Below are positions 2,890 through 6,136 of a DNA stretch of 38,669 nucleotides, in pieces. The translations under genes were made by a program, and so were the position numbers. The stretch's first letter is position 1. Every line of letters starts with the position of its first letter. The notes below the pieces were generated by a model that had not been told where the DNA came from, ran no database searches, and worked only from the letters and a program-made list of their open reading frames with translations. Where the stretch lies: assembly GCA_016934715.1 (NCBI GenBank), contig JAFGSI010000072.1:1-38669 (forward strand), written 5' to 3'. This DNA is from Anaerolineales bacterium. GTDB lineage: Bacteria > Chloroflexota > Anaerolineae > Anaerolineales > Villigracilaceae.

Positions 2890-2926
2890 AAGGCCGGGTT
2901 CCTGGCTGGAACCCGGCCTTCTTTTA
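2890..2926. terminator. Bidirectional rho-independent terminator
   Basis: A 13-bp stem (2890-2902 with 2908-2920) has a 5-nt loop and is followed on the + strand by CTTTTATC. It sits between the convergent ends of the 80-aa gene and the SGNH-like gene, and it overlaps the latter's stop region. Confidence 0.85.
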
Positions 2927-3892
2927 TCGCCCCGTCACCGCCCGCCAGACGGTGTCGAGCGCCTGCAGGCCGGTGAAACGTTGCAGCTGGAGGGCCTCAT
3001 CGGTCAGGTAGATGTCGCCCTGCAGGGGTCGGTCGCCGCGGGTGTACAGGCCGCCATTGGGTAAACTCTGGACCGCAGCCCAGAAGTTCCACAACGGCAG
3101 ATCGTACTCCTCCGCCAGGAGGGCATAGTCGCGGTTGACGCGCTCGTCCAGTTCGCGATTGTCGGCCTTGGCCACCAGGATCGGCACCACCCCCTCGGCC
3201 AGCAACTGGTCGATGATCTGGCGCAGGTAGGTGATATTGCGCGACTCGTAGTGCGTCCCGACGTGGATGAAGACGAAGGACGGGTTGTGGAGGCGCAGTT
3301 CGCAGGCCACGGGGGATTCGGCGAAGGAACAACCGTACATCCCCTGGTGCCACTCGTTCCACAGCAGCGCCCCGGCCGTCGTCCCACCGCGGACCGTCGG
3401 GCTATCCCGGTCAAATGAGCCGGCGAACCAACCGGCGGTTTCCTGCAGGTGCTCGGGCAGGGCCGCCACGGCACCGGGGTCGCTATCGTAGACTCCCCAG
3501 AAGGCCTCCGATTCCGATTGGCAGTCGCCGAAGACCGAGAAGGCGTGCGGGTCGTTGCCCAGCCGCTGACCAAGTGCGTAGATCTCGCTGACGCCGGCTG
3601 CAACCACTGGAAGCACCGGCCAGTTCTTCCAGTCCTCAGGATCCAGGTTAATGTGGACCGGGAACGGGGTGAGCGAGACAGTTGCTTGCAGCCCGGCCTG
3701 GATCGCCAGCACCGGGGTGGCAGTCTGCGTGGGAGGCGGATAATCAAGGCCAGGGGTGAAGGTCGCGAAGATCACCGTCGCCGGGGCCGGGGTCGGGGGC
3801 GTCGGGGATGGCGAGAGCGGCGCGGAGAACGCACAAAAAAAGAACAGGGGGAAAACGAAGAATAGTTCGAACGGAGGGCGGCGAAGAGGCAT
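2924..3892 (-). CDS. Secreted SGNH/GDSL-hydrolase-like protein
   Basis: This 322-aa exported protein has a short basic N-terminus, a hydrophobic segment (FELFFVFPLFFFCAF) and then a Pro/Thr-rich linker to about residue 50, so it is likely anchored or secreted. The body has SGNH-like order: FGDCQSES where the GDS nucleophile block normally lies, a later HVGTHYESRN block, and a C-terminal LQALDTVW helix. The usual Ser is replaced by Cys (GDC), and I see no canonical C-terminal DxxH pair, so catalytic competence is doubtful. The ATG is preceded at 6 nt by TAGAAT with no Shine-Dalgarno, suggesting a leaderless start. It converges on the 80-aa gene. Family assignment is moderate; the substrate is unknown. 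Confidence 0.6.
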   Translation of the reverse strand: MPLRRPPFELFFVFPLFFFCAFSAPLSPSPTPPTPAPATVIFATFTPGLDYPPPTQTATPVLAIQAGLQATVSLTPFPVHINLDPEDWKNWPVLPVVAAGVSEIYALGQRLGNDPHAFSVFGDCQSESEAFWGVYDSDPGAVAALPEHLQETAGWFAGSFDRDSPTVRGGTTAGALLWNEWHQGMYGCSFAESPVACELRLHNPSFVFIHVGTHYESRNITYLRQIIDQLLAEGVVPILVAKADNRELDERVNRDYALLAEEYDLPLWNFWAAVQSLPNGGLYTRGDRPLQGDIYLTDEALQLQRFTGLQALDTVWRAVTGR

Positions 3893-3898
3893 GGGCCG

Positions 3899-3904
3899 AT
3901 TCTA
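3899..3904 (-). promoter_or_regulatory. -10 box of the SGNH-like gene, leaderless type
   Basis: Read on the minus strand, TAGAAT ends 6 nt before the ATG at 3892, so transcription should begin at or next to the start codon. A GGTTGA/TTGAGT -35-like sequence lies 14-16 nt upstream. Confidence 0.5.
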
Positions 3905-3947
3905 ATTGATTTTTTAAAACTCAACCCGCCGGGGCGCTAAAATGGGG

Positions 3948-3953
3948 TATAAT
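3948..3953 (+). promoter_or_regulatory. -10 box of the thr leader transcript
   Basis: A consensus TATAAT with no good -35 at 17 bp. It places the transcript start near 3960, giving a leader of about 160 nt before thrC. It lies back to back with the SGNH-gene promoter. Confidence 0.6.
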
Positions 3954-3974
3954 GCGGCCCTTAAGGCGTCCGAT

Positions 3975-4040
3975 ATGTCTATACAGCCACCCGCAAACGA
4001 CCAGCGCACGACCACCACCACTCCCTGTCTCCCCACGTGA
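3975..4040 (+). CDS. thrL: Threonine-rich leader peptide (attenuation)
   Basis: An ATG-to-TGA frame encodes a 21-residue peptide with five consecutive threonines (residues 12-16; codons ACG, ACC, ACC, ACC, ACT) and a sixth Thr as the last residue. AAGG at 3963-3966 lies 8 nt before the ATG as a weak ribosome-binding site. The frame sits between a TATAAT box and an intrinsic terminator, directly upstream of the threonine biosynthesis genes thrC and thrB. This is the layout of classical amino-acid attenuators such as enterobacterial thrL. Function is inferred from layout; the symbol is used by analogy. Confidence 0.75.
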   Translation: MSIQPPANDQRTTTTTPCLPT

Positions 4041-4048
4041 GTGGACAG
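4025..4048 (+). promoter_or_regulatory. Possible pause hairpin of the thr attenuator
   Basis: CTGT (4025-4028) plus CCAC (4033-4036) pairs with GTGG (4041-4044) plus ACAG (4045-4048), with a 4-nt bulge on one side. It overlaps the end of the leader peptide, where a ribosome would block it. Its 3' arm region (4040-4046) can alternatively pair with 4083-4089, inside the terminator loop, a possible antiterminator contact. The alternative pairing is my reading by eye. Confidence 0.45.
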
Positions 4049-4074
4049 CCGGTCATACCTGATGCCAGCCCAGG

Positions 4075-4108
4075 CTCCCGAAGTCCGCTCCCTTCGGGAG
4101 TTTTCTTT
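4075..4108 (+). terminator. Attenuator terminator before thrC
   Basis: CTCCCGAA (4075-4082) and TTCGGGAG (4093-4100) form a perfect 8-bp stem, followed at once by TTTTCTTT. It lies between the leader peptide and the thrC ribosome-binding site (GGAGG, 4111-4115), so it must be read through for thrC expression. Confidence 0.8.
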
Positions 4109-4118
4109 CAGGAGGAAC

Positions 4119-5177
4119 ATGATCCCCTACCAAGGAGTCCTGCAGCGTTTCAGCTCCCTGCTCGACCTGCCGGAACACGCCCGCCCGGTCAGCCTGTTGG
4201 AAGGCGACACCCCGCTGATCCCGGCCGCCAGCCTGGCTCGGGAATTGGGCGGTGGTTTCGAGTTATTCATTAAGTATGAGGGCCTGAACCCGACCGGCTC
4301 GTTCAAAGACCGCGGCATGACCGCAGCCGTCAGCGAAGCCCTCGGACGGGGCGCCAGCGCCGTCATCTGTGCCTCGACCGGCAACACGGCTGCCTCGGCC
4401 GCCGCCTACGCTGCCCGGGCCGGGATGCGTTCGGTCGTGCTCATTCCACAGGGCAAGGTGGCGACCGGCAAACTGGCCGGGGCCCTGGCCTACGGAGCCC
4501 GGGTCGTCCAGGTCAATGGCTCGTTCGACGACGCCCTGACGATGGTCATAGAGATGAGCAACAAACACCCGCTCTGCCTGGTCAATTCGATCAACCCCTA
4601 CCGCATCGAGGGCCAGAAGAGCGCCGCCTTCGAGGTCTGCGATACCCTGGAGACGGCCCCCGACTGGTTGTGCCTGCCGGTCGGCAACGCCGGCAATATC
4701 ACCGCCTGCTGGGCCGGTTTCAAGCAGTATGAGACCCTGAAATCCAGCGGACTGCCGCAGCTACTGGGTGTCCAGGCCGAGGGAGCCGCCCCGCTGGTGC
4801 TCGGCCACCCGGTAGAGCATCCCGAGACGGTCGCCACAGCGATCCGGATCGGCAAGCCGGCGCGCGGTGAACAGGCCCTGCAGGCTGCCGAAGAGTCTGG
4901 CGGGCGGATCATCGCCGTCAGCGACGCGGCGATCCTGAAGATGCAGCAGGCCCTGGCCCGCCTGGAGGGCATCTGGGTCGAACCGGCCTCGGCTGCCGGG
5001 CTGGCCGGGCTGGCCGATGAACTGTCCGCCGGGCGCTTCGATGCCAGGGGCAAACGGATCGTGGCCATCTGCACCGGTCACGGTATGAAAGATCCCGACA
5101 TCATCACCCAGGATTTCACCTGCCCCACGGTCGTCCCGCCGCGGCTGGACGCGCTCGAGGAGGTATTGCTACGATGA
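4119..5177 (+). CDS. thrC: Threonine synthase
   Basis: This PLP enzyme converts O-phosphohomoserine to threonine in the cytoplasm. The protein is 352 aa, the short form of the family. The PLP lysine is K63 in NPTGSFKDRG. The ASTGNTAASAAAYAARAG segment that binds the cofactor phosphate follows, and CTGHGMKDP lies near the C-terminus. I choose the ATG at 4119 because GGAGG (4111-4115) precedes it and the sequence starts with the family-typical YQGVLQRF. An in-frame GTG at 4041 would run through the terminator hairpin and is rejected. The gene overlaps thrB by 4 nt (ATGA). It is probably regulated by the threonine attenuator upstream. Confidence 0.96.
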   Translation: MIPYQGVLQRFSSLLDLPEHARPVSLLEGDTPLIPAASLARELGGGFELFIKYEGLNPTGSFKDRGMTAAVSEALGRGASAVICASTGNTAASAAAYAARAGMRSVVLIPQGKVATGKLAGALAYGARVVQVNGSFDDALTMVIEMSNKHPLCLVNSINPYRIEGQKSAAFEVCDTLETAPDWLCLPVGNAGNITACWAGFKQYETLKSSGLPQLLGVQAEGAAPLVLGHPVEHPETVATAIRIGKPARGEQALQAAEESGGRIIAVSDAAILKMQQALARLEGIWVEPASAAGLAGLADELSAGRFDARGKRIVAICTGHGMKDPDIITQDFTCPTVVPPRLDALEEVLLR

Positions 5178-6136
5178 AAGCGATCCATATACGCGTCCCG
5201 GCAACGACCGCCAACCTGGGTCCCGGCTTCGACGCCCTGGGCCTGGCCCTCGACCTGTGGAATGAAGCCGTCTTCCTCCAGACCGAGGACGCCCACACCA
5301 CCCTGACCGTCTCCGGCGAAGGGGAAGGATCCCTGCCCGCGGATGAGCAAAATGCGATCGCCGGCGCAGTGTGCCAGTTGTTCGATCTGGTCGGCAAGGC
5401 CCCCCGCGGGCTGGTCATCCACTGCCTCAACCGCATCCCGCTCATGTCAGGGCTGGGGTCCAGTTCGGCGGCTCTGCTGACCGGCCTGCTGGGCGCCAAC
5501 ACCCTGCTGGGCAACCCCTTCTCCCACGAGGAGATCCTGACCCTGGCGACCCAGACCGAGGGCCACCCCGACAATGTCGTCCCGGCCATGCTGGGCGGGC
5601 TGGTGGCCTCGGCGATGTGCGACGGCCGGGTGGTCACGCGTAAACTGCTGGTCGCCCCCACGGCGATCACGGTCGTGCTGCCCGATTTCTACTTTCCCAC
5701 CAGGAATGCCCGCGAGATCCTGCCCGACTACGTCCGGCGTGAGGAGGCCATCTTCAACCTGAGCCGGGCCGTGCTGGTCATCAAAGCCCTCGAAATGGGT
5801 GATCTGGCGCTGCTTGGTGAGATCATGGAGGATTCCCTGCACCAGCCCTACCGCCTGCCCTTGATCCCGGGAGCCCAGGAGGCCATCCGGGCAGGGCGCG
5901 CGGCTGGGGCCAGCGCGGTGGTGCTTTCGGGCGCCGGCCCCAGCCTGATCGCCTTTTCCGGGCAGCCGGCGGACACAGGCATCGGCTCTGCCATGCAACA
6001 GGCTTTCGAAGCCGCCGGCCTGGAGGCGCGCGTGTTCCCGTTGAACATCAGCCAGAGCGGCGCCAGCGTTCTCGAAAAAGAAACTGCTGGAAAGGCTGCC
6101 GGTCTCTTGCCAGCGGAGGCATTTTTTGCGCGATAA
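5174..6136 (+). CDS. thrB: Homoserine kinase
   Basis: This GHMP kinase makes O-phosphohomoserine, the substrate of ThrC. It is 320 aa. The N-terminus VPATTANLGPGFDALGLALD is typical, the phosphate-binding loop GLGSSSA is at residues 93-99 and a C-terminal LSGAGPSLIAF motif is present. Its start overlaps the thrC stop (ATGA), so translation is coupled and both steps share the attenuator. No homoserine dehydrogenase or aspartokinase gene is seen in the window. Confidence 0.96.
   Translation: MKAIHIRVPATTANLGPGFDALGLALDLWNEAVFLQTEDAHTTLTVSGEGEGSLPADEQNAIAGAVCQLFDLVGKAPRGLVIHCLNRIPLMSGLGSSSAALLTGLLGANTLLGNPFSHEEILTLATQTEGHPDNVVPAMLGGLVASAMCDGRVVTRKLLVAPTAITVVLPDFYFPTRNAREILPDYVRREEAIFNLSRAVLVIKALEMGDLALLGEIMEDSLHQPYRLPLIPGAQEAIRAGRAAGASAVVLSGAGPSLIAFSGQPADTGIGSAMQQAFEAAGLEARVFPLNISQSGASVLEKETAGKAAGLLPAEAFFAR

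Follow-up and report, generated by a model that had tools for sequence, protein, structure and literature searches.

The stretch of DNA analyzed here, hereafter the window, comprises 38,669 nucleotides from an Anaerolineales bacterium (Chloroflexota; contig JAFGSI010000072.1). Its thrC and thrB genes are preceded by a short leader, whose features and neighbors are as follows:

2924-3892, minus strand: gene of a 322-aa protein upstream of the leader (ORF list)
3948-3953, plus strand: -10 box TATAAT of the likely leader promoter, which lacks a good -35 at the expected distance (sequence reading)
ATG 3975 to TGA 4038-4040, plus strand: leader ORF of 21 codons, MSIQPPANDQRTTTTTPCLPT then stop (sequence; orthologous frames in loci L122 and L074, see below)
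4008-4022, plus strand: region 1, putative regulatory Thr codons ACG ACC ACC ACC ACT (sequence reading)
4018-4044, plus strand: region 1:2 protector or pause hairpin, CCACTC (4018-4023) with GAGTGG (4039-4044) (MFE fold; no-ribosome fold)
4039-4056, plus strand: region 2, formed by the post-stop block GAGTGGACAGCCGGTCAT and providing the antiterminator with its 5' strand (alignments of three leaders; fold)
4073-4091, plus strand: region 3, comprising 5' arm and loop of the terminator and serving as the 3' strand of the antiterminator (folds)
4075-4108, plus strand: intrinsic terminator with U-rich tail (sequence, MFE fold, covariation)
4110-4115, plus strand: Shine-Dalgarno AGGAGG of thrC (sequence reading)
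4119-5177, plus strand: thrC, threonine synthase (NCBIfam equivalog TIGR00260, 297.3 bits, cut-off 167.1)
5174-6136, plus strand: thrB, homoserine kinase, with a 4-base overlap with thrC (NCBIfam equivalog TIGR00191, 230.2 bits, cut-off 168.25)

The order of leader, terminator and thrC-thrB is the right one for attenuation: the leader ORF lies between the TATAAT and thrC-thrB, and the intrinsic terminator is placed between the leader stop codon and the first gene, thrC. An initial annotation of this DNA had already pointed to the TATAAT, the 21-codon frame with five consecutive Thr codons, the pause-type hairpin over the end of the frame and the thrC-thrB pair, and all of them were confirmed, both genes being NCBIfam equivalogs above cut-off. 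The terminator and its U-rich tail stood as well, the stem having 9 bp instead of the 8 bp first given. It consists of perfect pairs between 4075-4083 and 4092-4100, to which the fold adds two G-U pairs, and is followed by the tail TTTTCTTT at 4101-4108; the loop has 8 nt (4084-4091).

Neither NCBIfam nor Pfam gave a match, at E values up to 0.001, to the 322-aa protein encoded upstream of the leader. A homologue, 58% identical (170 of 293 aligned positions), occupies the same place before the leader of another genome of the same family, G110. Since the 322-aa gene runs on the minus strand, the terminator at 4075-4108 is not the 3' end of this neighbor. Farther upstream, the window carries on its plus strand (2642-2884) an intact conserved gene of 80 amino acids (MSLDAAINDLKDKITAAG...), without Pfam match, whose relatives are found close upstream of thrC in the loci L002, L004, L016, L042, L065 and L072. 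Some of these relatives have a tail rich in Thr and Pro, such as ITTTPPPA in L016, and are separated from thrC by a hairpin resembling a terminator.

The TATAAT at 3948-3953 is absent from the output of a promoter consensus scan of 3600-4300, which gave plus-strand sites at 3717-3744 and 3914-3943 and returned nothing in the stretch from the leader to thrC. In L122 the leader is likewise preceded by TATAAT, and in L074 by TTGACA-N16-TACAAT. The poor -35, the weak Shine-Dalgarno of the leader ORF (AAGG, 3963-3966) and the rarity of the leader are among the points against reading it as an attenuator. The terminator fold reached a z score of -2.57, with 2 of 200 shuffles as good; a terminator consensus scan reported a shorter register only (4087-4101), and shuffles averaged 0.7 such sites. 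Folded as a single structure, the whole 159-nt leader has a z score of -0.50 and is equalled in stability by 65 of 200 shuffles, though exceptional stability of any single fold is not required of a switch.

We found an orthologous leader before thrC in two further genomes, that is, G110 (locus L122) and the contig JADBJJ010000032.1 (locus L074). The latter belongs to a MAG, Chloroflexi bacterium isolate Tumba.bins.32, from the class of the window, another order and family f24; judged by coordinates and score, the same locus is G434 and G588 in our genome samples, and its leader is also L170. Both genomes keep the frame, the Thr run, the post-stop block, the terminator and thrC. DNA similarity, not Thr content, led to the L122 leader. 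The L074 leader was located by its Thr run, and this run is therefore not independent evidence, all other features of L074 being independent.

The encoded peptides are MYRPDNIITTNTTTTPPPA in L122 and ...MITTTTTEPPPDG in L074, each followed by a stop codon. Their ends (TTTTTPCLPT in the window, TTNTTTTPPPA in L122 and TTTTTEPPPDG in L074) differ in sequence and keep the Thr run, with five, six and six Thr codons, respectively, in an 8-codon span, and with five, four and six codons from the run to the stop. When the runs were aligned from their ends, the pairwise differences numbered four (over four codons), three (over five) and four (over four), and all 11 fell on third codon positions, as would be expected of codons kept for threonine.

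The block GAGYGGACRGNNGGTCRT directly after the stop codon is common to the three leaders in the alignments, and in each of them it is able to pair with the terminator 5' arm and loop. The sequence of the terminator itself varies among the three: in three of eight aligned pairs both partners are exchanged while pairing is kept in every sequence, and none of six slid controls showed such a pair. The covariation of the stem, which the initial annotation had proposed to check, thus stood against the slid controls; it did less well against shuffling, as 39 of 500 shuffles of these sequences (n = 3) equalled it. All these comparisons rest on three related sequences.

To follow the alternative pairings, the nascent RNA was folded up to the terminator 3' arm with the ribosome-covered part removed, on the assumption of a ribosome footprint reaching 11 nt beyond the A-site codon; the folded transcripts begin at the leader ATG, and in L074 from the inner ATG only. 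A ribosome placed at the last Thr codon gave 7.99 expected antiterminator pairs in the window, 7.62 in L122 and 6.89 in L074. With the ribosome at the stop codon there were 0.00 in each of the three leaders, and with no ribosome 0.95, 0.08 and 0.02, the Thr-codon region pairing with region 2 in the three no-ribosome folds. In L074, a stall three codons earlier gave 0.74 antiterminator pairs, even before the 3' arm was made. The antiterminator first suggested for the window, 4040-4046 with 4083-4089, proved right and extends to 4039-4046 with 4083-4090 in the nascent-RNA fold.

At equilibrium, the complete leader favors the terminator in the window and in L074 in every state tried, a stalled ribosome included. 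The complete L122 leader keeps the antiterminator, with 3.13 pairs for a stall at the last Thr codon and 7.61 for a stall three codons earlier. As the terminator wins at full length in two of the three leaders, antitermination must be kinetic. Shuffles of the spacer reached the observed nascent 2:3 pairing in 38 of 500 cases for the window and in 0 of 500 for both L122 and L074, and the energy of the region 2:3 duplex was reached by 23, 6 and 13 of 1000 shuffles of the 19 nt after the stop (window, L122 and L074, respectively). The window alone is moderately convincing only; the three leaders together are convincing.

The geometry of the switch deserves a comment. Region 3 would be largely the terminator loop, and the nascent-RNA folds have the antiterminator also occupying part of the terminator 5' arm. 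If region 2 paired along the whole loop while the stem was closed, the result would be a pseudoknot in which hardly any nucleotide remains to span the 8-bp helix; antiterminator and terminator should therefore be mutually exclusive despite the few bases that they share.

Taken together, we consider it very likely that the thrC-thrB leader is a classical ribosome-mediated transcription attenuator sensing threonyl-tRNA, in which the leader and its RNA switch very probably turn thrC-thrB on when charged threonine tRNA is scarce. The anatomy of the leader, its conservation in three genomes and the alternative pairings in folds are what the analysis shows. The claim that this order of elements "defines" ribosome-mediated attenuation was right as to the anatomy, which two further genomes keep, and too strong as a definition, because the response to Thr-tRNA charging, like the start site, the translation of the ORF and the co-transcriptional timing, is what we infer. 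RNA polymerase would start near 3960 and the leader would be translated by a ribosome. With ample charged tRNA-Thr, the ribosome would reach the stop codon at 4038 and cover region 2; no antiterminator could then form, the terminator at 4075-4108 would, and transcription would end before thrC. With charged tRNA-Thr scarce, the ribosome would stall within the Thr run, four to six codons short of the stop. Region 2, left uncovered, could then pair with the 5' arm and loop of the terminator while these are being transcribed, so that the terminator would be pre-empted and thrC-thrB transcribed. If no ribosome were present, region 2 would be taken by the Thr-codon region, and termination would follow.

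A stop codon closely after at least five Thr in eight codons occurs once on the two strands of the window, at the leader, and seven times in 1,057,246 strand-bases from 80 related loci, the leader of L074 being one of the seven. From this background rate, about 0.3 would be expected in 160 upstreams of 300 nt, and three were found in the 160 distinct thrC loci. So low a background speaks against a constitutive leader, that is, a leftover 5' terminator beside a meaningless short frame whose Thr run arose by chance. Such a leader would agree with the fact that 157 of the 160 distinct thrC loci manage without one and with the modest statistics of the window taken by itself (whole-leader z of -0.50; 38 of 500 spacer shuffles). 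Nevertheless, the frame, the Thr run, the post-stop block and the terminator persist in another order despite a different terminator sequence, and the differences within the run are all synonymous, including those between the window and L122, which was found by DNA similarity. We regard a constitutive leader as very improbable.

T-box leaders respond to the charging of tRNA and may exert their effect on a terminator, as we propose for the leader described here; they do so by direct tRNA binding, with no translated run. A T-box, or a leader binding some metabolite or protein, could in principle act on the terminator with the peptide being incidental, and leaders of this type control amino acid genes elsewhere, his genes under T-boxes among them (PMC9413887). 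The window, however, has no Rfam family at gathering score and no T-box match at E values up to 10 in 3900-4200, the leader has only about 150 nt, and the differences within the Thr run are synonymous; we regard this explanation, too, as very improbable. The same goes for a short frame that is a deletion remnant of the conserved gene of about 80 amino acids together with that gene's 3' terminator. In its favor, this gene lies upstream of thrC and in the same orientation in L004, L009 and L016, where its tail reads VTPPPA, ETTPPPE and ITTTPPPA, respectively, and a hairpin resembling a terminator stands ahead of thrC, but we reject it because the gene is intact in the window at 2642-2884, with another tail and a minus-strand gene between it and thrC, and also in view of L074, where no match to it was found within 3 kb upstream of thrC, and of the region 2:3 pairing, which a remnant does not predict.

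The leader is rare. We located thrC in 228 of 268 loci, 160 of them distinct by thrC sequence (the upstream sequence of L131 is shorter than 250 nt; none had to be removed for being partial or for an identity below 50%), and the Thr scan together with R1, a model built from the three leader sequences, found the leader in three of the 160 and not in the remaining 157. The initial annotation had named orthologous leaders without the frame and the Thr run as grounds for refutation. Both are kept in the three loci where the leader exists; the other 157 upstreams are without a frame with a Thr run, and the rest of the leader is also absent from them as far as R1 sees. Run on one representative for each of the 160 loci, R1 returned the same three leaders and no other at E values up to 0.001. 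These figures, and those that follow, are to be read with the facts that R1 can miss divergent leaders and that the genome samples overlap. A Thr scan loosened to at least four Thr in eight codons gave seven further upstreams (L080, L019, L038, L089, L098, L167 and L248), none of which reaches 10 bits with R1.

Within the family, thrC was matched at E values up to 1e-90 in 112 of 152 genomes. Leaving out G081 (contig edge) and G151 (match without the N-terminus), the leader is present in 2 of 110 thrC upstreams, those of the window genome (G000) and of G110, and was not found in 108. R1 matched 5 of the 152 genomes at E values up to 1e-4: these two leaders and three matches of 31-33 bits, without nearby thrC or thrB, which were set aside as terminator-like hairpins. 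In the class sample, 97 of 396 genomes had some R1 match at E values up to 0.1, two of them above 90 bits (G000 and G588, the latter being G434), with the next best at 31.5 bits. Apart from the match in the window, 29 R1 matches (L170-L198) were inspected; a neighboring thrC or thrB was seen for L170 alone, and the other readable ones are terminator-like hairpins or coding sequence. R1 matched 1 of 48 genomes in the order of G434 and, at E values up to 1e-6, 1 of 400 in the phylum sample, the window itself. The post-stop block was also tried alone as a DNA pattern: it matched 8 of 400 genomes of the order, whose contexts show the leader in the window only, and a reversed control pattern also matched 8 genomes, so the block alone is without power.

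Some further observations concern other loci. Hairpins of terminator type, nearly identical to one another and sharing the core TTCCGAAGT...ACTTCGGAA, occur in L173, L174, L179, L190, L191 and other loci of Anaerolineae, and the attenuator terminators of the window and L122 resemble them; an exact match to TTCCGAAGN{2,12}CTTCGGAA is absent from the genome of the window. About 200 nt upstream of thrC in L089, a frame ending in LPPTTTTPRSS and a stop is followed by a CCCCGGTC...GACCGGGG hairpin, and this frame may be the end of an upstream gene or a degenerate leader. In L006, short repeats (CGACTACCC/CGGCCACCC) 30-170 nt upstream of thrC give Thr/Pro-rich frames.

In a thrC tree (quick method, 120 rows), the window and L122 are sisters with an SH-aLRT of 91, and L074 stands apart, in a poorly resolved part. 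One origin of the leader and transfer are both compatible with this tree. The two genus-mates of the window in our genome set (G001 and G002) have no thrC match at E values up to 1e-90, and among the matches listed every genus-mate of G110 except one is likewise without such a thrC. The only thrC homologues of G001 and G002 are about 38-40% identical, and some of these are also found in the window genome. Based on the absence of such a thrC from the genus-mates of the window and nearly all those listed for G110, we tentatively suggest, as a possibility rather on the doubtful side, a Chloroflexota lineage of thr attenuators not derived from the proteobacterial one, with a conserved region-2 block pairing largely with the terminator loop, that is a self-regulated module passed from order to order along with thrC-thrB. 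The patchy spread, three genomes in two orders, makes a case for asking if such attenuators originated repeatedly or travelled with their genes.

The thr operon leader of Escherichia coli (thrL; RF00506, Thr_leader) is the known system most directly comparable, with its Thr-rich peptide, its terminator before threonine genes and its alternative pairings that exclude each other. With RF00506, the leader of L074 (L170) gives a full-length match at 23.7 bits and an E value of 0.4, below the gathering threshold of 55 bits; the window has no RF00506 match at E values up to 10 and L122 has none, nor is any Rfam leader matched in the two. The E. coli leader peptide mixes Thr and Ile codons, whereas in the window the Thr codons follow one another without a break and lie near the stop. 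Moreover, the window leader controls, in our reading, thrC-thrB with no thrA in front, and its region 3 is largely the terminator loop. Unlike T-box leaders, the window leader matches no T-box of Rfam.

Our search of the accessible literature found no Chloroflexota threonine attenuator, and no conserved RNA structure is reported upstream of the threonine operons of Actinobacteria (PMC1262725). Leader-peptide attenuators of histidine genes are described in Firmicutes, for Bacillus hisS*/hisZ (PMC2965389) and for his operons (PMC9413887). They resemble the leader of the window in having a lineage-restricted peptide with a run of cognate codons, a terminator with an antiterminator and a presence in few related species; they differ in the amino acid, histidine versus threonine, and in the phylum, Firmicutes versus Chloroflexota. 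The mechanism of attenuation is a known one, and we take the threonine attenuator to be real, ordinary in kind and unusual for its phylum. With it, the Anaerolineae would join the bacteria in which leader-peptide attenuation governs an amino acid operon, and ribosome stalling together with a coupling of transcription to translation would be implied for a little-studied phylum.
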